From a bacterium (lineage in GTDB: Bacteria > CG2-30-53-67 > CG2-30-70-394), in the NCBI GenBank assembly GCA_024278555.1, contig JAJRSX010000160.1:1-14469 (forward strand): DNA of 14,469 nucleotides, read 5' to 3'. The position numbers and the translations under genes are program-made. Under the pieces are notes generated by a model. That model was not told where the DNA came from, searched no databases, and worked only from the letters and a program-made list of their open reading frames with translations. Shown one piece after another: positions 1,471-11,221 of this stretch (position 1 is its first letter; each line of letters starts with the position of its first letter).

Positions 1471-1791
1471 ATGAAGATCGGATCGGGAAACAACAAGAAT
1501 GTTCGGACCGGCAACACCGGCAAGGCGGGGAGCGCTGGCAAGGTGGGGAAGGGTGGTAAGGCGGGGGGGGCCGCCTCGAGCGGGCGTTCGCGCTCCGGTG
1601 GCGACCACGTGGAGATCTCCGGCCACGCCCGGGATGTCCAGCAGGCGCTGGATCTCGCCACCACGGCGCCGGAGGTGCGTGCCGCGAAGGTGGAGCCGCT
1701 GAAGCAGGCGGTGGAGGACGGGACCTACCACCGCCCCAGCGACGAGATCGCCGAGCGGATCGTCGACGAGATGAAGCACGGCCCGGGGTGA
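1471..1791 (+). CDS. flgM: Anti-sigma-28 factor FlgM
   Basis: FlgM binds and inhibits FliA (sigma-28) until the hook is complete and FlgM is exported. The 106-residue product has the FlgM C-terminal half: VEISGHARDVQQAL (47-60), then VRAAKVEPLKQAVEDGTYH (69-87) and IAERIVDEM (93-101). This is the helical pattern that wraps sigma-28, with the typical GTY turn. Residues 1-45 are an unusual Gly/Lys/Ser-rich, probably disordered stretch with repeated GKxG steps; FlgM N-termini are normally disordered and serve in export. The ATG at 1471 is chosen because GGAG lies about 8 nt upstream and the sigma-28 promoter ends just before it, so in-frame codons from 1378 lie at or before the promoter. It is divergent from flagellin and convergent with tpiA. 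A run of eight G (1563-1570) lies within the linker codons. Confidence 0.88.
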   Translation: MKIGSGNNKNVRTGNTGKAGSAGKVGKGGKAGGAASSGRSRSGGDHVEISGHARDVQQALDLATTAPEVRAAKVEPLKQAVEDGTYHRPSDEIAERIVDEMKHGPG

Positions 1792-1860
1792 CCAGAGCCC
1801 GGTTCTTCACCGACCAGTCCGTCGTCGTCCCAAGAGATCGCCACTCGCGACGGCGACGCT

Positions 1861-1893
1861 CTTACGGGTCCAAAGGTCCCGTGAGCGTTTTTT
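1861..1893 (+). terminator. Rho-independent terminator of flgM, inside the tpiA 3' end
   Basis: Arms CTTACGGGTCC (1861-1871) and GGTCCCGTGAG (1875-1885) pair over 11 positions with one T-T mismatch and one G-U pair around an AAA loop. They are followed by CG and six T (1888-1893). The T run is on the plus strand only, so it terminates rightward transcripts coming from flgM, about 70 nt after its stop. It overlaps the stop codon and last codons of tpiA on the other strand. Confidence 0.75.
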
Positions 1894-2668
1894 CGCGAGC
1901 CCTTGAGATTCGTCCCGCCGTGATGATCCGCGAGAAGGTGGCCGCATCGAGGGAGGCGCCGCCCACGAGCACGCCGTCCACGTCCGGGGCGGCAAGGAGC
2001 TCGGCGGCGTTGGCGTCGTTCACCGAGCCGCCGTAGAGGATGGGGACCCGGTTGGCGGTATCGTCGTCGCAGTGGTTCGCCATCCAGGCGCGGATCGCCG
2101 CATGGACCTCCTGGGCCTGCTCGACGGTCGCGGTCTCGCCGGTGCCGATCGCCCACACCGGCTCATAGGCGACGACGATCTGCGCCCGTCGCTCCGGCTT
2201 GCAGCCGCCCAACCCGGCGGCGAGCTGACGCTCTACCACCGCCTCGGTCTGGCCGGCCTGCCGCTCCGCCTGGGTCTCTCCGACACAGAGGACCGCGACC
2301 AGCCCTGCCTCAACCGCCGCGGTCACCTTCTTGCCGGTCGCCTCGTCGGTCTCGCCGAAGATGTGACGACGCTCCGAGTGGCCCACGAGGCAGTGGCGGC
2401 AGCCGCAATCGACGAGCTGGGTCGCCGAGACCTCACCGGTGTAGGCACCGCCCTCCTCCCAGTAGAGGTCCTGACCGCCGATGAAGAGGTTTGCCGGGCC
2501 GAGGCGGGCGACCTTGCCCGTCCGCTCAAGGGCGGTGAAGGAGGGGAAGAGGACGACCTGCCGGTGGGGGGCGTCCAGGGCCGCGTCCATCACCCCACGG
2601 GCGAGACGCTCGGCCTCATCGAGGGTGCAGTTGAGCTTCCAGTTTCCGGCGATGATCGTGGCACGCAT
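1862..2668 (-). CDS. tpiA: Triosephosphate isomerase
   Basis: This cytosolic enzyme interconverts dihydroxyacetone phosphate and glyceraldehyde 3-phosphate in glycolysis and gluconeogenesis. All landmarks are present in 268 residues: AGNWKLN (7-13, with N9 and K11), GHSERR (96-101, catalytic His97), AYEPVWAIGTG (167-177, catalytic Glu169 plus flexible loop 6), YGGSV (212-216) and VGGASL (235-240) in the phosphate-binding region. The ATG at 2668 gives the canonical N-terminus and has GGGGA about 8 nt upstream. Typical family members end soon after the FSRII-like helix. Here about 15 extra residues follow (252-268), and their codons form the flgM terminator on the opposite strand. It is convergent with flgM and has no obvious terminator of its own. 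The strong mrp terminator upstream implies a separate promoter within 2669-2819, but I see no convincing -35/-10 there. Confidence 0.98.
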   Translation of the reverse strand: MRATIIAGNWKLNCTLDEAERLARGVMDAALDAPHRQVVLFPSFTALERTGKVARLGPANLFIGGQDLYWEEGGAYTGEVSATQLVDCGCRHCLVGHSERRHIFGETDEATGKKVTAAVEAGLVAVLCVGETQAERQAGQTEAVVERQLAAGLGGCKPERRAQIVVAYEPVWAIGTGETATVEQAQEVHAAIRAWMANHCDDDTANRVPILYGGSVNDANAAELLAAPDVDGVLVGGASLDAATFSRIITAGRISRAREKTLTGPLDP

Positions 2669-2819
2669 GGCAGATCCCCAAGAGATTCGAAAGAAGAGTG
2701 GGTCGATTCCGTGGCGGGTCCGCGACGGGTGCTCCCTCCCGTGACACCGGGTCTCCCGTCCGGAATTCCAATGAACGACCTACTTTTACTCCTTGCCGCG
2801 GCGATTTTTAAGGGGGCGC

Positions 2820-2855
2820 AAAAAGGGGGGCCCGGCGGGATGCCGGGGCCCCCTT
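2820..2855 (-). terminator. Rho-independent terminator downstream of mrp
   Basis: On the minus strand a G+C-rich stem of about 12 bp (2842-2855 with 2825-2836, one bulged base, 5-nt loop 2837-2841) is followed by five T (2824-2820). It starts about 20 nt after the mrp stop codon and should insulate tpiA from mrp transcription. Confidence 0.88.
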
Positions 2856-2875
2856 GGAGCCACACTGGCAGGCCT

Positions 2876-3958
2876 CTACGCCTGGTTGAGGGTGAAGACC
2901 GGCTTTACGTGGGTGAGCCGCTTTTTCAGGTTGCGCTGGGTGACCTGCTCGGAGAGGGCCTGGGCGAGCTCGAGGAAGCGTTTCGCCTGTGGCGAGTCGG
3001 GTTGGGCGGCGACGATCGGCTGACCCGTGTCGCCCCCCTCGCGCACCACCGGGTCGAGCGGCACCTTGCCGAGGAAGGGCACCTTGTACTCGCTGGCGAG
3101 CATGGTGCCGCCGCCCTCGCTGAAGATCGCCGTCTCCGTGCCGCACGATGGGCAGACGAAGGAGGACATGTTCTCGATGACCCCAAGGATGGGGACCTCC
3201 ACCTTCTGAAACATCCCCATGCCCTTCTTCACGTCGGCGACCGCCACGTCCTGTGGGGTGGTCACCGCGATCGCCCCGTCGAGCTTGGCAAGCTGCGACA
3301 GGGAGAGCTGGGCGTCGCCGGTGCCCGGGGGGAGGTCGACGAGGATGTAGTCGAGATCACGCCACTCCACGTCACCGAGGAGCTGGCGCATCATCCCGTC
3401 GATCATCGGCCCGCGCCAGATCACCGGATCCTTGTCCTTCACGAAGAAGCCGAAGGAGATGTAGTAGACGCCGTGGCTGAGCGCCGGGATGAGCCGCTTG
3501 CCGAACATCTCCAGGGGCCGCTCCACCCCCATCATCGTGGGGATCGAGGGGCCGAGGATGTCGGCGTCGAGGATCCCCACCTTGTTGCCCATCTGGGTGA
3601 GGGCGATGGCGAGGTTGGCGGTGACCGTGGACTTGCCGACCCCCCCCTTACCCGAGGAGACCGCCACCACGCAGCGGACCTCCGGGATCAGATTCCGCTC
3701 CCCGTACTCCAGCGACAGGGTCTCCTCCACCACCTTCAGGTCGACCCGCTCGACCCCCTCAACCTGCTCCATCGCCTGGCGGACCTGGGCCTCCAGCTCC
3801 GGGCGCAGGCGGCTGCCTACCGCCGGCATCGCCAGGGTGGCCGAGGCGGTCCCGTCGGCGACGGTGACGTCCTTCACCACCTTGAGTTGGATGAGGTCCT
3901 CCTCCATCCCGGGATACGGGATCGCCTCCAGTGCCTCGATGACTTTTGCGGTGCTCAT
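2876..3958 (-). CDS. mrp: Mrp/ApbC-type Fe-S cluster carrier P-loop ATPase
   Basis: Mrp/ApbC (NBP35 family) is a soluble ATPase that binds a Fe-S cluster at its dimer interface and delivers it to apoproteins. The 360 residues show an N-terminal MIP18/DUF59-like domain (about 1-80) and the ATPase: deviant Walker A SGKGGVGKST (102-111), DADILGPS (131-138), DLPPGTGD (208-215), TTPQDVAV (233-240) and the cluster-binding CPSC (Cys269, Cys272). The N-terminal domain lacks the usual DPE motif; the equivalent stretch reads YPGMEED. The ATG at 3958 is chosen over upstream in-frame codons because AGGAG sits 5 nt before it and the product then begins at the domain boundary. A strong terminator follows. 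The next gene upstream ends in its own terminator, so mrp is probably a single-gene transcript. Confidence 0.96.
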   Translation of the reverse strand: MSTAKVIEALEAIPYPGMEEDLIQLKVVKDVTVADGTASATLAMPAVGSRLRPELEAQVRQAMEQVEGVERVDLKVVEETLSLEYGERNLIPEVRCVVAVSSGKGGVGKSTVTANLAIALTQMGNKVGILDADILGPSIPTMMGVERPLEMFGKRLIPALSHGVYYISFGFFVKDKDPVIWRGPMIDGMMRQLLGDVEWRDLDYILVDLPPGTGDAQLSLSQLAKLDGAIAVTTPQDVAVADVKKGMGMFQKVEVPILGVIENMSSFVCPSCGTETAIFSEGGGTMLASEYKVPFLGKVPLDPVVREGGDTGQPIVAAQPDSPQAKRFLELAQALSEQVTQRNLKKRLTHVKPVFTLNQA

Positions 3959-4076
3959 GGTCTCTCCTGTTGAACAAGCTCTTTGGTTTTCGTTGCCGCC
4001 GCGATCACGACGAGGGGGGATTGTCGGTAGCGAAGCCCCTTCTACGCAATTCGCCGGCCCAATTTGTGGGTCGCGA

Positions 4077-4117
4077 CAATAAAAGAGGGGCGCCCCCACC
4101 GGTGGTGGGGACGCCCC
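4077..4117 (-). terminator. Rho-independent terminator of the Rrf2/zinc-ribbon unit
   Basis: The arms at 4104-4117 and 4087-4100 pair over 14 positions with a single A-C mismatch around a 3-nt loop. On the minus strand they are followed by TCTTTTATT (4086-4078). It begins 30 nt after the stop of the zinc-ribbon gene and separates it from mrp. Confidence 0.9.
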
Positions 4118-4147: not shown

Positions 4148-4369
4148 CTACTCTTCCACTTCGTGGCTCACCACCTTGTGGCGGAAACGGCTCCCCTTGC
4201 GGGGGCCGGGCGGCTCCAGGCGCGGGCCGGAGTGGAAGAAGACGTAGTTCCCGCAGATGTAGCAGCGGTAGTAGTTGGAGTCCATCGAGTCGCTCTGCAG
4301 ATTGCTCGCGCTGTCGACGCACACCATCTTTTCCATTTGCATGGGGGATGAGCACTTGGGGCATTTCAT
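4148..4369 (-). CDS. Small zinc-ribbon protein of unknown function
   Basis: The predicted product is 73 residues, starting at the ATG at 4369 with GGAGG 7 nt upstream (4377-4381). Upstream in-frame codons run back into the preceding gene and lack this site. Two CxxC knuckles, CPKC (3-6) and CYIC (36-39) followed by GNY, are separated by 29 residues and predict one zinc ribbon. A further Cys17 lies between them. The C-terminal 25 or so residues are basic and proline-rich, ending in acidic residues. No catalytic motif is visible. It lies 38 nt behind the Rrf2-family gene, is followed at once by a strong terminator, and is therefore probably co-transcribed with that regulator. It could bind nucleic acid or a protein partner, or act as a metal-binding accessory protein. 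The gene is well supported; the function is not known. Confidence 0.82.
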   Translation of the reverse strand: MKCPKCSSPMQMEKMVCVDSASNLQSDSMDSNYYRCYICGNYVFFHSGPRLEPPGPRKGSRFRHKVVSHEVEE

Positions 4370-4407
4370 TGTCGGGCCTCCAGGGTAGGGAATGGTAATA
4401 CTATACG

Positions 4408-4824
4408 TTATGGGTGAGCGGCGGCTCGGTTGGGTGATGCTTCTCGGGCCATCTCCGCGAGGTTGGCAGCGTCCAGTTCCGCGAGGATCGCTCGCTCGAC
4501 CCGTTCCCACACGGGTCGGGTGAAGGAGGTGGCGCCGTTGCTCCCTCCCTCTCGAACCAGTCGAATCGGCCCTTCGACCGCCTCGACCACGTCGCGCATG
4601 GAGATCTCCGATGGGTCGCGGGCGAGGGAGACGCCACCGCCGGTGCCGCGCTGGGTGAAGACCAGGCCGGCACGGGCAAGACGACGCACCACTGCGGCAA
4701 AGGCGTGGCCCGGCAGGTCACGACTCCGGGCGATCTCTTCCACAGGCTCCACCGCCCCGGGGGGCAAGGTCGCCAGGTGGATGATCCCCGCCACCGCGTA
4801 GTCGACACTCCGGTTGATGACCAT
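4408..4824 (-). CDS. Rrf2-family transcriptional regulator without cysteines
   Basis: A winged-helix repressor-type protein of the Rrf2 superfamily (relatives IscR, NsrR, CymR). The 138 residues show the family pattern: NRSVDYAVAGIIHLA (4-18), a helix-turn-helix with VEEIARSRDLPG (28-39) and AAVVRRLARAGLV (43-55), the wing TQRGTGGGVSLARDP (57-71), then ISMRDVVEAVEGP (74-86). The entire protein has no cysteine, including the 90-104 segment where IscR and NsrR carry their Fe-S ligands. It therefore cannot hold a three-Cys Fe-S cluster and may sense a small molecule, sense another metal, or need no ligand. The ATG at 4824 gives the canonical MVINRSVDYA start; the Shine-Dalgarno is weak. The leader contains an 8-bp direct repeat that could be its own operator. 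It is the first gene of a probable pair with the zinc-ribbon gene, and mrp lies beyond the terminator. Confidence 0.9.
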   Translation of the reverse strand: MVINRSVDYAVAGIIHLATLPPGAVEPVEEIARSRDLPGHAFAAVVRRLARAGLVFTQRGTGGGVSLARDPSEISMRDVVEAVEGPIRLVREGGSNGATSFTRPVWERVERAILAELDAANLAEMAREASPNRAAAHP

Positions 4825-4836
4825 GATTTGTCCGTA

Positions 4837-4855
4837 AAACTATTAATAAACTATT
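4837..4855. repeat. Direct repeat AAACTATT x2, candidate operator
   Basis: AAACTATT at 4837-4844 and 4848-4855 are separated by AAT, giving an 11-bp period, about one helical turn. This is the most AT-rich patch of a GC-rich window and lies 12-31 nt upstream of the Rrf2-family start codon. It could be an autoregulatory site. Known Rrf2 operators are usually inverted repeats, so the assignment is inference. Confidence 0.45.
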
Positions 4856-4862
4856 CTTTGGA

Positions 4863-4891
4863 AGCTTAGCCACCAGAACGCACCCCGTCAA
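4863..4891 (-). promoter_or_regulatory. Possible sigma-70 promoter of the Rrf2-family gene
   Basis: On the minus strand, TTGACG (4886-4891, 5 of 6 to consensus) is followed after 17 nt by TAAGCT (4863-4868, 3 of 6). Transcription would begin near 4857, placing the AAACTATT repeats across the initial transcribed region. The -10 is poor, and a different -10 within the repeat region is possible. Confidence 0.3.
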
Positions 4892-4963: not shown

Positions 4964-4985
4964 TGACCGCGCCGGGCGGCGGTCA
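4964..4985 (-). other. Short hairpin at the glrR stop codon
   Basis: TGACCGC (4964-4970) and GCGGTCA (4979-4985) form a perfect 7-bp inverted repeat with an 8-nt loop. It includes the TGA stop of the response-regulator gene. No T run follows on the minus strand, so it is at best a weak or Rho-assisted end signal. The flanking sequence 4860-4963 holds nothing else recognisable beyond a run of eight G (4910-4917). Confidence 0.3.
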
Positions 4986-6338
4986 GCAGAAGTCGGAGCG
5001 CTTCAGGCTGTGGCGTTTCATCAGGGCGTAGAAGTCGGTGCGGTGCTTGCCGGCCATCTCCGCCGCCCGGGTGACATTGCCGCCCGAGGCGCGTAGGACG
5101 CGGATCAGGTAGTCGCGGTCGAAGTGTGCCCGCGCGTCGCGCATCGGCATGAGGGTGAGGTCGCCGGTGGCGGGCCCCTCCAGGGAAGACGCCTTCAGGG
5201 CGAAGTCATCCGCCTCCAGCCGGTCACCGTCGGAGAGGGCGACCGCCACCTCGACGCGGTTTCTGAGCTCGCGCACGTTGCCCGGCCACGGGTACTGCTC
5301 CAGCCGCCTGATGGCCGGTGGGCTGAGCTCCAGGGAGCGCCCACCGGCCAGCTCGGTGAGGAAGTGGCGGACCAGGGGGATGATGTCCTCGCGTCGCTCG
5401 CGGAGGGGGAGGAGGTGGAGGGGGAGGACGTCGATGCGGTAGTAGAGGTCCTCGCGGAAGTCCCCTTCGGCGACCTTGCGCCGCAAGTTTTGGTGGGTGG
5501 CGGCGATTACCCGGACGTCCACCGCCACCGGTTCCACTCCGCCCACCGGGACCACCTCGCGCTCCTGCAGAACCCGGAGGAGCTTGACCTGGGTCTCGAT
5601 CGGGGCGTCGCCGATCTCGTCGAGGAGTAGGGTGCCGCCGTGGGCGGCGCGAAAGAGGCCGCGGCGGGCGGCATGGGCGCCGGTGAAGGCGCCCCGCTCG
5701 TGGCCGAAGAGCTCGCTCTCCAGGAGCTCCGAGGGGATGGCGCCGCAGTTGATCGCCCGAAACGGGCCTCGCCGCCGGCCGCTCAGATTGTGCAGGGCGC
5801 GGGCCACCACCTCCTTGCCGGTGCCGGTGTCGCCGGTGATCAGGACCGTGGAGTCGACCCGCGCGAGCCTGTTGATCCGCCTCCATACCTCACGCATCGC
5901 CGGGCTGACGGCGACGAACGGTGCCGTCGCGGGTGTCGCCCCGGCGGGGGGGGCGGCGCTCCGGCCGCGCAGGGCCGCGCGAATCCGGCCGACGAGCTTC
6001 ATCCCGTCGTACGGCTTCTCCAGAAAGTCGAAGGCGCCGTTGCGGATGGCCTTGACCGCGCTGGTGATGTCGCCGTGGGCGGTGAGGATGATCACCGGTA
6101 CCGCGGGCCACCGCCGGTGGACCGCCTCCAGGAGGTCGAGGCCGCTCACCTCGGCCATCCGCAGGTCGCTCACCACCGCGTCGGGCGGGGTGGTGGCGAT
6201 CAGGCCGAGGGCCTCTTCACCGCTGCTGGCGGTGACCACCGTGTACCCCTCGCTGGCGAGGCGCATGGCGAGGACCTCGAGGATGGCCGGATCGTCATCG
6301 ACGAGGAGAATCCTGGGGTTGGCGCCCGGGTCACTCAC
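4983..6338 (-). CDS. glrR: GlrR/QseF-like sigma-54-dependent response regulator
   Basis: An NtrC-class activator that drives sigma-54 promoters after phosphorylation by its partner kinase. In 451 residues: a receiver domain (about 8-122, acidic pair D14/D15, phospho-acceptor D58 in VVSDLRM, T87, K108); an Ala/Pro linker (125-140); an AAA+ domain (about 142-375) with Walker A GDTGTGKE (169-176), GAFTGA (216-221, sigma-54 contact) and Walker B LLLDE (237-241); and a Fis-type helix-turn-helix (NVTRAAEMAGKHRTDFYALM, 421-440). The C-terminus closely recalls E. coli GlrR (GNVTHAARMAGRNRTEFYKLL). The start is GTG at 6338 with GGAGGG 5 nt upstream, overlapping the preceding QseG-like gene by 8 nt. 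In enterobacteria GlrR activates the glmY small RNA; no target promoter was found in this window. The symbol rests on gene order plus domain similarity. Confidence 0.93.
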   Translation of the reverse strand: MSDPGANPRILLVDDDPAILEVLAMRLASEGYTVVTASSGEEALGLIATTPPDAVVSDLRMAEVSGLDLLEAVHRRWPAVPVIILTAHGDITSAVKAIRNGAFDFLEKPYDGMKLVGRIRAALRGRSAAPPAGATPATAPFVAVSPAMREVWRRINRLARVDSTVLITGDTGTGKEVVARALHNLSGRRRGPFRAINCGAIPSELLESELFGHERGAFTGAHAARRGLFRAAHGGTLLLDEIGDAPIETQVKLLRVLQEREVVPVGGVEPVAVDVRVIAATHQNLRRKVAEGDFREDLYYRIDVLPLHLLPLRERREDIIPLVRHFLTELAGGRSLELSPPAIRRLEQYPWPGNVRELRNRVEVAVALSDGDRLEADDFALKASSLEGPATGDLTLMPMRDARAHFDRDYLIRVLRASGGNVTRAAEMAGKHRTDFYALMKRHSLKRSDFC

Positions 6339-6822
6339 CGCTGCCCTCCGCCGGGAGGGGGGCGAGGTCGATCGCCTTCAGCCGCTCCATCTCATGTTCG
6401 AGGGTGCGGACCTTGTGGGTCAGGCGGGTCTGCGCCGCCGTTGCCTTGGCGGCAGCGCGGGTGGCGCTCTGCTGGGCCTCGTGCTCCGCCTCCCAGGAGG
6501 TGAGGAGGGCGAGGAGGGTTCGCGCCACCGCCCCGGCACCGCCCCCCTGCGGCTCCAGCTCGCTGGCGCGGGTCAGCCAGGTGCGCGCCTCCGGTGACGG
6601 GGTGGTCACCGCCGGCGGCAGGTAGGCGAGGGCGCCGTGCAGCCAGGCGGCGGCGCGCAGGTGAGGATCGGCGGTGGGGTCCTCGCGCAGGCGGCGTGCC
6701 TCTTCGGGCGCCTGGGTGTGGAGCCCGTTGGCCGGCGCCGACGGCGCCGTGCGCAGCCATGGCCACGGTGCGCAGCCGATGGCGGTGGCGAGGATGAGGG
6801 CCGTGCAGGCCGACCTAAGCAT
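6331..6822 (-). CDS. qseG: QseG-like lipoprotein between kinase and regulator
   Basis: A 163-residue predicted lipoprotein: hydrophobic segment LRSACTALILATAIGC with the lipidated Cys17 (AIGC lipobox), a helical region (about 50-110), then an Ala/Arg/Glu-rich coiled coil (about 110-150, ending LEHEMERLKAIDLAPLP). E. coli QseG has the same plan, with a short lipoprotein signal, an alpha-helical body and a C-terminal coiled coil ending in LENLTDIERQLS, and is encoded in the same place between glrK and glrR. There it is an outer-membrane lipoprotein that contacts the GlrK periplasmic domain and promotes signalling. This copy is shorter. The ATG at 6822 has GAGGGGG about 6 nt upstream and overlaps the kinase stop by 8 nt (ATGCTTAG). 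Sequence identity to QseG is probably low, so the call depends on architecture and synteny. Confidence 0.8.
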   Translation of the reverse strand: MLRSACTALILATAIGCAPWPWLRTAPSAPANGLHTQAPEEARRLREDPTADPHLRAAAWLHGALAYLPPAVTTPSPEARTWLTRASELEPQGGGAGAVARTLLALLTSWEAEHEAQQSATRAAAKATAAQTRLTHKVRTLEHEMERLKAIDLAPLPAEGSGE

Positions 6823-8281
6823 GTGCCGCCCCCTCGGTCGTGGACGGGATGCGGGCGACGAAGCGCGAGCCGTGGTCCGGGGTGGAGGCCACCCGCAGCT
6901 CGCCGCCGTGGTCCTCGACGATGAACCGGGCGATCGCAAGGCCGAGGCCGGTCCCCGGCAGGGAGGCGTCGGCGTGGCCGCGCTCGAACCGCTCAAAGAT
7001 CCGTCCGAGCTCCGCCTCGGGGATGCCGATCCCGCTGTCGCACACGGCGATATCGACCGCCGGGGTCTCCCCGTCGTCGTGGCGCTCGACCTCGAACCAG
7101 ACCCGCCCCCCGGGGCGGTTGAACTTGACCGCGTTGGCGATGAGGTTGGTGAAGACCTGGCACAGCCGCTCCTCGTCACCGTGGACGGTGGCGTCGGGGA
7201 AATCCGGCGGCACAATCTCGATCCCCTGGCGGGCGGCCAGCAGGTCGGTCCCCTGGATGGAGCGGTGGAGGAGGGCATCAACAGGCACGGTGCGAAAATG
7301 GTACCCCATCTGCCCCGCCCTAATCCTGGAGAGGTCGAGGATCTGGGCGGTGCGCCGCTGCATCCGGTCGAGCTCGTGGCGGCTGATCTCCAGGAGCTTG
7401 CGCTGTCCGTCGCTGGTCGGGCCGGCGGCCCCTTCGAGCATCAGGGCGTTGGCTTCCCGCAGGGAGGTGAGTGGGGTCTTGAGCTCGTGTGAGCAGTTGG
7501 CGAGGAACTCCTCCTTGAGAGCGTCGAGCTCGGCGAGGCGGCGGGCCATCTGGTTCGCCGAGCGCGCCAGGTCGCCGATCTCGTCGTCACGCTCCATGGT
7601 GACCTGGTAGGTGAGCTCCCCCTGGGCCCAGCGGCGGGTGGCGGTGCGGATCTCGTGCAGCGGCCCGGTGACGTGGCGGGCCGTCCAATAGGCGAGGAGG
7701 CCGCCCACCCCCATCGCCACCACCCAGCCCAGGAGGCCCATGTGGAAGGTGTGGCGCACGGCCCGGTCGCTCTCCTGGAGGCGTGCCTCCATCCGCTCCT
7801 GGAGGCCGTCACGCACGGCATTGAGGAGGTCGGAGACAATATTGAAGGTGGCGCCGAGCTCGTCGACGCGGTGGACCTTCAGGGTCGCGTGGTCCCCCTG
7901 CCGCTGCCAGAGGCCGCGATGGGCCTCCTCCGCCGTGGCCATTGCCCGCCGCCACTCCCCCTCCGGGAGGTTGGCGGCGAGGGCGGTCAGGGCCGCCACG
8001 AGCTGTTGTCCTACCTCATCGGTGCGCTTGATGAAGGCCGGGTCACCGGTGACCAGGCTCTTCTTGGCCAGGCTCTCCTCGGCGCGGGCGAGCTGCAAAC
8101 AGCGTCCCGCCTCCATGTGCAGGGGCAGGTCATCGTGGAGGAGCTGGTCGACACCCCGACCGAGGGCGGCGAGGTAGCCGAGGATATAGACGCCGAGGCA
8201 GGCGACCACCACCCCGAGGAGGAGGTAGCTGACCAGGAACTTCAGGTAGAGACGGCGGGAGAGGAAGGAGACGAACGCCAT
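6815..8281 (-). CDS. glrK: GlrK/QseE-like sensor histidine kinase
   Basis: Inner-membrane kinase that should phosphorylate the GlrR-like regulator two genes downstream. From the ATG at 8281 the product has 488 residues: TM1 (about 15-38), a helical periplasmic sensor (about 39-178), TM2 (about 180-199), HAMP (about 200-252), a dimerisation domain with SHELKTPLTSLREANALM (phospho-acceptor His265), and an ATPase domain with the N box NLIANAVKFN (379-388), DSGIGI (415-420) and GTGLGL (443-448). LTSLRE after the His box is typical of GlrK. A TTG five codons upstream (8296) is in frame, but the ATG gives a normal kinase N-terminus. No clear Shine-Dalgarno precedes either. The stop TAG overlaps the QseG-like ATG. 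All kinase motifs are intact, so it should be active. Confidence 0.93.
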   Translation of the reverse strand: MAFVSFLSRRLYLKFLVSYLLLGVVVACLGVYILGYLAALGRGVDQLLHDDLPLHMEAGRCLQLARAEESLAKKSLVTGDPAFIKRTDEVGQQLVAALTALAANLPEGEWRRAMATAEEAHRGLWQRQGDHATLKVHRVDELGATFNIVSDLLNAVRDGLQERMEARLQESDRAVRHTFHMGLLGWVVAMGVGGLLAYWTARHVTGPLHEIRTATRRWAQGELTYQVTMERDDEIGDLARSANQMARRLAELDALKEEFLANCSHELKTPLTSLREANALMLEGAAGPTSDGQRKLLEISRHELDRMQRRTAQILDLSRIRAGQMGYHFRTVPVDALLHRSIQGTDLLAARQGIEIVPPDFPDATVHGDEERLCQVFTNLIANAVKFNRPGGRVWFEVERHDDGETPAVDIAVCDSGIGIPEAELGRIFERFERGHADASLPGTGLGLAIARFIVEDHGGELRVASTPDHGSRFVARIPSTTEGAAHA

Positions 8282-8295
8282 GGGTGTGTCGTGCA

Positions 8296-8324
8296 ATCAT
8301 CGGGGCGGGCCGAGAGGGGGTCAA
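8296..8324 (-). promoter_or_regulatory. Candidate sigma-70 promoter of the glrK operon
   Basis: On the minus strand, TTGACC (8319-8324, 5 of 6) and GATGAT (8296-8301, 4 of 6) are separated by exactly 17 nt. The start site would lie near 8289, only about 8 nt before the glrK ATG, so the mRNA would be nearly leaderless. That agrees with the absence of a Shine-Dalgarno. No sigma-54 signature (GG-N10-GC) was found here. Confidence 0.4.
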
Positions 8325-8407
8325 CGCGCCCTGCCGACCCGCCGAAGCATCGTCTTATGTTGGCTAACCCATTGCCGCCTCCCGAGCACGTCACTAATGT
8401 CCGGCCC

Positions 8408-11221
8408 ATGGATCGTCGCCCCAGCGTGACCGGAACCCGCCCGGCGGTGCGCCTCGCCGCTCTCCTCCTCCTCCTCCTCTGCTGTCTCATCGCCCCGGCC
8501 TGCCACCACGACAAGGGCGGCGAGGCGGAGCTGCGTTACAAGCGCGCCACCCGGCTGCTCGACGAGGGCAAGGTGAAGGCGGCGGTGGTGGAGCTCAAGC
8601 AGGCCACCGCGGCGCGGGAGGGGTGGGCGCCGGCGCACCGCAAGCTGGGCCACGCCTACCTCACCCTCGGGCGGTATGAGAATGCCCGGCGCTCCCTCGC
8701 CCGTGCCGCCAGCCTCGCCCCGGAGGACCTGGAGATCCTCCTCGATCTCGCCGAGGCGGAGATCCACCTCGACCAGCTCGAGCGAGCGAAGGGGTACCTC
8801 GAGCGGTACACCCAGGGGGTGGGAAAGACGCCGCGGGTGGAACGCCTCCTCGGGGCCCTTGCCCAGCGCCAGGGGGATCCGGCCGCGGCGCGAACCCACC
8901 TGGAGGCGGCCCTGGCGGCGAACCCGGACTCTCCGGCCACCCGCATGGAGCTCGCCCGTCTGGCGGTCGGCGAGGACGACCTCGAGGAGGCGGCGCGTCA
9001 GCTCAACGAGGCGGTCAAGGACCACCCCGAGGACCTGGAGATCCAGTACGGTCTCGCCGAGGTGGCGATCCGCCAGGGGGATCTCGGCGAGGCCAATGAG
9101 ATCCTCGACCGGATCGGCAGGATCGACGACCAGCAGGTCCTCAACCGCCTCCTCAAGGTGGATAACCTCATGCGCCTCGGCCGCGACAAGGACGCCCTCG
9201 CCGAGGCGACCGCCCTCGCCGGCGCCTACCCGGCACTCGGCCGCGCCCACCTCCTGCAGGGTGTCCTGTTGCTCAAGGCGAACCGGCTCAACGACGCGGT
9301 GGAGGCGCTCACCCACGCCACCTCCGCCGATGACAAGGACGCCGCCGCCTACTTCTACCTCGGCTCGGCCCTCCTCGCCATGGGCAAGGGGGAGCAGGCG
9401 CGCGCCCACCTCACCCGCGCCGTCGAGCTCCGCCCCGGCTACCCGATCGCCCAGGCCCTGCTCGCCGAGGCCCACCTCTTGGTGGGGGACACCGGCGCCG
9501 CCCGGCGGGTCGCCCAGGCGCTGATTGCGGACCACCCGGACCTTCCCATGGCGCGTCTGGTCGACGCCGATGCCGACGCGGTGGCCGGCCACCTCGACGC
9601 GGCGGCGGAGAAGCTGGAAAGGCTGGTGAGGGATCTGCCCGACTGGCGGGAGGGTCGCCTCCATCTCGCCCGGGTGGAGGCGAAGGCGGGCCATCCGGAG
9701 GCGGCGGGCGCGGCCTACGCGGCCCTCGCCCAGGGCGATGTGCCGGTGCCGCTCTATCTCGAATACGGCCGGCTGCTGGCGAAGGGGTCGGACTGGACAC
9801 CGCTCTTGCAGGTGGCCGAGGCGGCCCTTGCCGTCCACCCGGGCCGTGCCGTCCTGCTGAACCTCAAGGGGGTCGCCCTCGCCGGTCTCGGCCGTGGCGA
9901 GGAGGCGAAGGCGGCTCTCCGCGCGGCCCTGACGGCGACACCGGGCCACGGCGCCGCTGCCGCCAACCTCGCCAAGCTCCTGGCCAAGGAGGGGAGGGGA
10001 GCCGACGCCGTCGCCACCCTGCGCGCGGCGGTCGCCGCCAACCCCCAGGCCGGGTCACCGAGACGGCTGCTCGCCGAGCTCCTCCTCAAGGAGGGCAAGA
10101 CGGAGGAGGCGATCGGCCTCTACGAGGCGGCGGTCAAGGAGGCGGCGAGCCCCCGCGACCTCGCCCGCCTGACCCTGCTATATCTGAAGGGGGGGCGAGG
10201 GGAGGGGGCGGTGCGCGCCGCCCGGCGGCTGGTCACCGACCACCCGAAGCTCCCCGCGGCCCACCTCCTCCTGGTCCAGACCCTCGCCGCCTCCGGCCAC
10301 CCGGAGGAGGCCCTGGCCGAGGCGCAGACCCTGGTGGAGATGAAGCCCGCCTGGCCCCCCGCCCTCAATCAGGAGGCGGCGCTTCTCGCCCAGGCGAGGC
10401 GGGTCGACGACGCCGTCGTCACCTGGAAGCGATCGCTTGCGGCGCAGCCCGACCAGGCGGCGGTGGAGATCGATCTGGCCCGCGTCCTCCTGAGCGTTCA
10501 AAGGGGTAGGGAGGCGGTTGGCCACGCCCGCAAGGTGGTGGCCGCGCGTCCTGAAGATCCCACCGCGTACCTCATCCTCGGGCGAAGCCTGGAGGTGGCG
10601 GGCGAGGGGGAGGAGGCGGAGGGCGCCTTCAGGCGGGCCCAAAGCCTCGCCGCCGGCGCGCCGGCGGTCCTCGCCGAGATCGCCGAGTACCGCCTGCGCC
10701 GTGGGGATCCCGCCGCTGCCGAGACCCTCTACCGGGAGGTCTTGAAGGGGGAGTCGCGGCACCCCGGGGCGCTTCTGCGCCTGGCGATGATTGCCGAGCA
10801 CCAGGGCCGGTACGACGAGGCGGCGCGGCGTTACCAGCGGCTGCTGACCGTCCATCCGGAAGATGTCGTCGGCCTGAATAACCTGGCGTGGATCCTCGCC
10901 GACAAGCTCGGCAGGGCCGAGGAGGCGGTGGCGCGGGCGGCGGAGGCGAACCGCTTGCGGCCCGACCAGTGGTGGCTCCTCGACACCTGGGCGTGGGCCC
11001 TGGGCAAGGCGGGTGATCCGGACCAGGCCCTGCGGCGCCTCTCCGTGGCGCTGGCCCAGCGTCCCGACAATCCGACCCTCCACTACCACCGCGCGGTCCT
11101 GCTTTCGGCGCGCGGTGACCGGGTGGGGGCGGTGGTGGAGGCAAAGCGGGCGCTGGAGATCACCTCCGAGTTTCCCGAGGCGAAGCAGACCCGCACCCTC
11201 CTCGCCGGGTTGCAACGGTAG
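8408..11221 (+). CDS. Large TPR-repeat lipoprotein (PrsT-like)
   Basis: A 937-residue exported protein built almost wholly of tetratricopeptide repeats, which act as protein-protein scaffolds. An Arg-rich n-region, a core of six Leu (19-24) and IAPAC (28-32) suggest lipidation at Cys32, although Pro at -2 makes the lipobox imperfect. From about residue 40 to 930 the roughly 34-residue TPR pattern repeats, room for up to about 25 units (for example AHRKLGHAYLTLGRYENARR and LARAASLAPEDLEILL). The C-terminal units are NNLAWILADKLGRAEEAV then LDTWAWALGKAGDPDQAL. Length, signal and this C-terminus resemble the PEP-CTERM/exosortase-associated PrsT family, but no exosortase gene is in the window, so no symbol is given. 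The ATG at 8408 is chosen because it places the signal peptide at the N-terminus; ATG 8357 is also in frame. It is divergent from glrK, and the DHH gene starts 91 nt after its stop. Confidence 0.88.
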   Translation: MDRRPSVTGTRPAVRLAALLLLLLCCLIAPACHHDKGGEAELRYKRATRLLDEGKVKAAVVELKQATAAREGWAPAHRKLGHAYLTLGRYENARRSLARAASLAPEDLEILLDLAEAEIHLDQLERAKGYLERYTQGVGKTPRVERLLGALAQRQGDPAAARTHLEAALAANPDSPATRMELARLAVGEDDLEEAARQLNEAVKDHPEDLEIQYGLAEVAIRQGDLGEANEILDRIGRIDDQQVLNRLLKVDNLMRLGRDKDALAEATALAGAYPALGRAHLLQGVLLLKANRLNDAVEALTHATSADDKDAAAYFYLGSALLAMGKGEQARAHLTRAVELRPGYPIAQALLAEAHLLVGDTGAARRVAQALIADHPDLPMARLVDADADAVAGHLDAAAEKLERLVRDLPDWREGRLHLARVEAKAGHPEAAGAAYAALAQGDVPVPLYLEYGRLLAKGSDWTPLLQVAEAALAVHPGRAVLLNLKGVALAGLGRGEEAKAALRAALTATPGHGAAAANLAKLLAKEGRGADAVATLRAAVAANPQAGSPRRLLAELLLKEGKTEEAIGLYEAAVKEAASPRDLARLTLLYLKGGRGEGAVRAARRLVTDHPKLPAAHLLLVQTLAASGHPEEALAEAQTLVEMKPAWPPALNQEAALLAQARRVDDAVVTWKRSLAAQPDQAAVEIDLARVLLSVQRGREAVGHARKVVAARPEDPTAYLILGRSLEVAGEGEEAEGAFRRAQSLAAGAPAVLAEIAEYRLRRGDPAAAETLYREVLKGESRHPGALLRLAMIAEHQGRYDEAARRYQRLLTVHPEDVVGLNNLAWILADKLGRAEEAVARAAEANRLRPDQWWLLDTWAWALGKAGDPDQALRRLSVALAQRPDNPTLHYHRAVLLSARGDRVGAVVEAKRALEITSEFPEAKQTRTLLAGLQR
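8462..8479 (+). repeat. Trinucleotide repeat (CTC)6 in the signal-peptide core
   Basis: Six tandem CTC codons encode Leu19-Leu24, the hydrophobic core of the TPR lipoprotein signal. Slippage would add or remove whole Leu residues without a frameshift. CTC is the favoured Leu codon throughout this window, so the repeat may simply reflect composition. Confidence 0.7.

Follow-up and report, generated by a model that had tools for sequence, protein, structure and literature searches.

The window, that is, the whole 14,469-nt stretch of bacterial DNA analysed here, carries on its minus strand a two-gene unit consisting of an Rrf2-family regulator, a 38-nt gap between its stop codon and the next ATG, a 73-aa C4 protein and a terminator (Table 1). 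We interpret this unit, from its sequence and with moderate confidence, as an ordinary bicistronic operon that would repress itself, with a cysteine-free Rrf2 protein as the repressor and a zinc ribbon as the regulated product. The pair is real and is maintained within its genus. In the one further congeneric genome examined, Nitrospirae bacterium CG2_30_70_394 (hereafter the sister genome; GTDB uses CG2-30-70-394 as a candidate-phylum name, PMC8728215), the whole block is preserved, including a counterpart of the terminator, likewise with a 14-bp stem; protein identity across the block is 81-83%. Between the two genomes, dN/dS is 0.154 for rrf2 and 0.149 for the zinc-ribbon gene, compared with 0.137 for mrp and 0.141 for tpi in the neighbourhood, and both genes of the pair are under purifying selection. 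Because of this conservation and these dN/dS values, a chance pair of open reading frames is excluded. The preliminary description of this DNA was accurate on the layout: the 38-nt spacing and the 73-residue protein with its CPKC and CYIC motifs were all confirmed on the minus strand, and the strong terminator said to close the pair was found just beyond the interval 4148-4824 that it had quoted.

The regulator is assigned to the Rrf2 family by Pfam PF02082 (95.5 bits, cut-off 30, residues 3-127) and NCBIfam TIGR00738 (83.7 bits, cut-off 73.3). Its fold model (mean pLDDT 69) has helices at residues 5-19, 28-34 and 39-51, wing strands at 55-67 and further helices at 76-96 and 103-129. Structures matched by this model using Foldseek (7zpn, 2y75, 4cic) comprise IscR and CymR, with CymR chains among the best matches; at the sequence level, too, the regulator matches CymR and IscR structures. 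The DNA-binding half is intact and Arg59 of the wing, a position whose importance in Rrf2 proteins has been described (PMC9973013), is invariant. Over its whole length the protein has no cysteine, in the window as in the sister species; the three conserved cluster-loop cysteines by which regulators of the IscR/NsrR/RirA/RisR type are tested are absent, and the loop where the Fe-S ligands sit is shortened. Since there is no cysteine and the cluster loop is shortened, cysteine-ligated Fe-S sensing or a thiol switch is impossible, in agreement with the earlier conclusion that a regulator with zero cysteines cannot use Fe-S ligation of the IscR/NsrR type. A tree that includes 36 further Rrf2 proteins places it nearest, beyond its own orthologue, to a pair of five-cysteine paralogues from the same two genomes (moderate support, 94/74). 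Because these nearest relatives are five-cysteine paralogues of the same genus, the tree suggests that the Fe-S ligands were lost secondarily, after an old duplication.

IscR, NsrR, RirA and RisR share with the window regulator the family, the DNA-binding half and the dimer helices, but they ligate Fe-S clusters through cysteines, which the window regulator cannot do. Cysteine-free Rrf2 regulators are already known (PMC9218516; locus L056; 3lwf). CymR of B. subtilis and S. aureus (2y75, 3t8r) and the Listeria protein 3lwf have the same Rrf2 fold and the same shortened loop, and the aligned part of 3lwf is without cysteine, as is the window regulator. However, the window regulator is only about 27% identical to CymR and 3lwf, it scores 60.4 bits against the CymR equivalog model NF047409 (cut-off 195), and it is paired with a zinc ribbon rather than with cysK; no cysK gene was seen next to the window locus. 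At L056, a cysteine-free Rrf2 gene adjoins a cysK-like gene. Two large, uncharacterised Rrf2 similarity clusters (5 and 20), of mycobacterial and cyanobacterial proteins, have no conserved Cys or His and are like the window regulator in having no conserved metal ligands (PMC9218516). The window protein adds a clean example of an Rrf2 protein that lacks Fe-S ligands.

In the operon that we favour, a single promoter (TTGACG-17-TAAGCT) would drive both genes and the transcript would end at the terminator. The candidate promoter boxes lie at -67/-44 relative to the regulator start in the window and at -70/-47 in the sister genome. Directly 3' of the -10 box the sequence reads AAAGAAYAGTYTATT, and an AT-rich element falls where transcription is expected to start. 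In the sister genome this element forms one arm of an inverted repeat (9-7-9; AAAGAACAG-N7-CTATTCTTT), the arm length of which was reached by 18 of 500 shuffled sequences; the window keeps one arm but not the second. A binding site at this location would correspond to a repressor position on the operon's own promoter, where the Rrf2 dimer probably binds and represses its own operon. A pattern scan found no exact copies of the element elsewhere in either genome, and inexact matches with 2 mismatches were about as many as in a reversed-pattern control. Because the element is mismatch-free only at its own locus in both genomes, the regulator appears to have a local target, and its own operon is perhaps the sole one; the scan would overlook a wider regulon if its operator were degenerate. 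The ribosome site of the regulator is much weaker than the GGAGG of the zinc ribbon, and this combination would give the unit the look of an autorepressed operon delivering a second product, the zinc ribbon, via the far better ribosome site. The repressor itself would have to respond to a small molecule, to another protein, in the way that CymR responds to CysK, or to its own level alone. With this autoregulation-like promoter and strong ribosome site, the preliminary description's alternative, in which the zinc ribbon is the regulated product, seems the better fit.

Table 1. Features of the two-gene unit and its control region, in order of transcription (window coordinates).
Feature	Position	Strand	Basis
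Candidate -35 box TTGACG, 67 nt 5' of the Rrf2 start codon	4886..4891	-	Consensus match; identical in sister genome
Candidate -10 box TAAGCT (TAACTT in sister genome), 17-nt spacer in both	4863..4868	-	Consensus match; conservation
AT-rich element AAAGAATAGTTTATT, candidate operator at expected transcription start	4845..4859	-	Sequence comparison
Rrf2-family regulator, 138 aa, no cysteine	4408..4824	-	Winged HTH; wing Arg59 kept
Conserved gap stretch CGTATA-n-T-n-TTACCAT, just 3' of the Rrf2 stop	4389..4407	-	Conservation
Shine-Dalgarno GGAGG, 7 nt 5' of the zinc-ribbon start codon, also present in sister genome	4377..4381	-	Read directly
Putative C4 zinc-ribbon protein, 73 aa, CPKC-x29-CYIC plus Cys17	4148..4369	-	Motifs; fold model
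Intrinsic terminator, 14-bp GC-rich stem plus T-run	4087..4117	-	Folding z = -4.35

The small protein has five cysteines, four of them in two CxxC pairs that are invariant across eight aligned family members. Its AlphaFold model, of low confidence (mean pLDDT 55.5; 71-76 around the motifs), places three strands around the two pairs and aligns weakly with the zinc ribbons of Rpb9, TFIIS and NrdR (Z about 3). Small stand-alone C4 zinc ribbons (Rpb9/TFIIS/NrdR-type; PF0385, 2k5c) likewise have two CxxC pairs, with a spacing of ~29 residues, and the family profile matches 2k5c at E 3e-4. Unlike these known proteins, the window protein on its own reaches no Pfam or NCBIfam cut-off and ends in a clade-specific C-terminal tail. 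It probably binds Zn (or Fe) as a C4 protein and serves a housekeeping or a metal/redox function.

A profile built from eight class members was searched against 241 genomes (E up to 1e-4) and identified 26 copies of the zinc-ribbon family, present in 8/8 genomes of the class and in 0/233 genomes outside it. More distant relatives elsewhere are possible since the profile was made from class members only. The family is undescribed and clade-specific; within the 241 genomes searched it occurs in a single candidate-phylum lineage only, where it has multiplied. Both genomes of the genus have a single copy, and the other 24 copies are distributed over six class relatives. With a two-sequence profile, the sister genome was the only match in the genome collection and nothing was found in viral contigs, nor did tblastn find the zinc ribbon in plasmids. 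Outside the genus, the genes next to the copies encode CDF efflux transporters, rubrerythrin-like proteins, DHH proteins, rubredoxin and response regulators. Copies L061-L063, L067 and L068 stand beside rubrerythrin-like and DHH genes, and L057-L060, L064 and L066 beside CDF cation-efflux genes; the recurrence of these two contexts hints that the family has a metal or redox role. A divergent subgroup (L072-L074, L077-L080) has the form CGSKM-RDDTRFLPLNRDEGGAIFF-YYKCPICSKVVFLGL and is nearly invariant between genomes; an AbiEii-like gene lies near L072 and L074/L078.

To survey adjacency to Rrf2 genes, profile searches in all six frames were combined with a scan for CxxC pairs downstream of Rrf2 genes. 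The survey recovered the pair and no other homologous one. Several candidates were rejected as not homologous to the window protein: a ferredoxin-like frame with a CxxC pair after an Rrf2 gene (L036), the long frames after three Rrf2 genes (L092, L094, L095), which by eye look like threonine synthase, and an 80-aa C4 protein encoded two genes downstream of a four-cysteine Rrf2 (L041). The last of these loci (1477-3214 in an unrelated genome) encodes the Rrf2 protein, a 99-aa protein, the 80-aa C4 protein (CPHC-CYKC) and a ferredoxin-like protein, and is an independent Rrf2/small-C4 neighbourhood.

The preliminary description had raised the possibility that the zinc ribbon supplies metal-sensing cysteines in trans, as an obligate co-regulator that binds the cysteine-free Rrf2 to make a split metal/redox sensor. 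CymR, itself cysteine-free, acts through a partner protein, CysK, and provides a precedent. The tight 38-nt pairing is kept in both genus genomes with their single-copy zinc ribbon, and of the seven full-length Rrf2 proteins encoded in its genome the regulator alone is cysteine-free. Nevertheless, we regard an obligate co-regulator as improbable. Around the pair, the window and the sister genome are collinear throughout 10 kb, so that adjacency, conserved within one syntenic block that two congeners share, says little in favour of a functional link; only two species carry the pair, and its adjacency may be inherited rather than functional. In the six relatives, no Rrf2 gene is found within ~1.5 kb of any of the 24 family copies; among the about 24 Rrf2 proteins of these relatives, all 19 examined have three or more cysteines. 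Since zinc ribbons occur away from Rrf2 and Rrf2 proteins keep their cysteines, neither gene needs the other outside the genus, and the independent occurrence of zinc-ribbon homologues is the very outcome that the preliminary description had named as counting against its proposal. The idea of trans ligands is not supported, as nothing positive beyond adjacency speaks for it. No publication combining 'Rrf2' and 'zinc ribbon' was present in the literature searched; the pairing accordingly stands as undescribed there, as had been claimed, while the cysteine-free Rrf2 itself is not new. It is very improbable that, in one genus of a candidate phylum, a cysteine-bearing Rrf2 paralogue and a free-standing zinc-ribbon family gave rise to a split metal/redox sensor with its metal binding outsourced to the small protein of the same operon. 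A genuine partnership of the two proteins would illustrate how a sensor domain can become a separate protein.

Two further readings, each of which we consider unlikely, concern what the small protein does and whether the two genes are linked at all. As a rubredoxin-like iron electron carrier, the small protein would serve peroxide or oxygen reduction and be stress-induced via the Rrf2 repressor. Its second motif, CxxCG, recalls the rubredoxin knuckle, family copies adjoin rubrerythrin-like genes and in one case a true rubredoxin, and sub-threshold Pfam matches to Desulfoferrod_N (4/8 members) and RUBY_RBDX (3/8) point the same way. The first motif, however, is CPKC-S and not CxxC-G; no rubredoxin cut-off is reached, rubredoxin PF00301 gives no match to the small protein at E up to 1, and the fold alignment favours, weakly, transcription-type C4 zinc ribbons. 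The two genes could also be mere neighbours, with the Rrf2 target elsewhere and the zinc ribbon having its own gap promoter and an unrelated job. The family copies found apart from Rrf2 genes would fit this, as would the conserved gap (CGTATAnTnTTACCAT), which contains a TATAGT/TATATT box; the conserved gap stretch listed in Table 1 is possibly an internal -10 or control site, with no convincing -35 box. Yet the gap measures only 38 nt and holds no terminator, a gap promoter would be without a -35 box, and the candidate operator has no other exact copies.

Beyond the terminator lies mrp/apbC (3958-2876, minus strand), which scores 335 bits with the ApbC model, just below the cut-off of 348. 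Upstream of mrp, a 31-nt block (ATTGCGTAGAAGGGGCTTCGCTACCGACAAT; 4020-4050, minus strand) is nearly unchanged in the sister genome, although the surrounding DNA has diverged. The block is probably an mrp promoter or operator; a dispersed repeat was ruled out, there being a single copy per genome. No Rfam family was found in the window. At 8402-11218 (plus strand), an XrtA/PEP-CTERM TPR protein PrsT is encoded (358 bits, cut-off 312), and no exosortase was recognised within the window. Upstream of the pair, the minus strand (4983-8296) carries a histidine kinase, a small lipoprotein-like gene and a GlrR-like sigma-54 response regulator, in the gene order of the enterobacterial glrK-qseG-glrR cluster.
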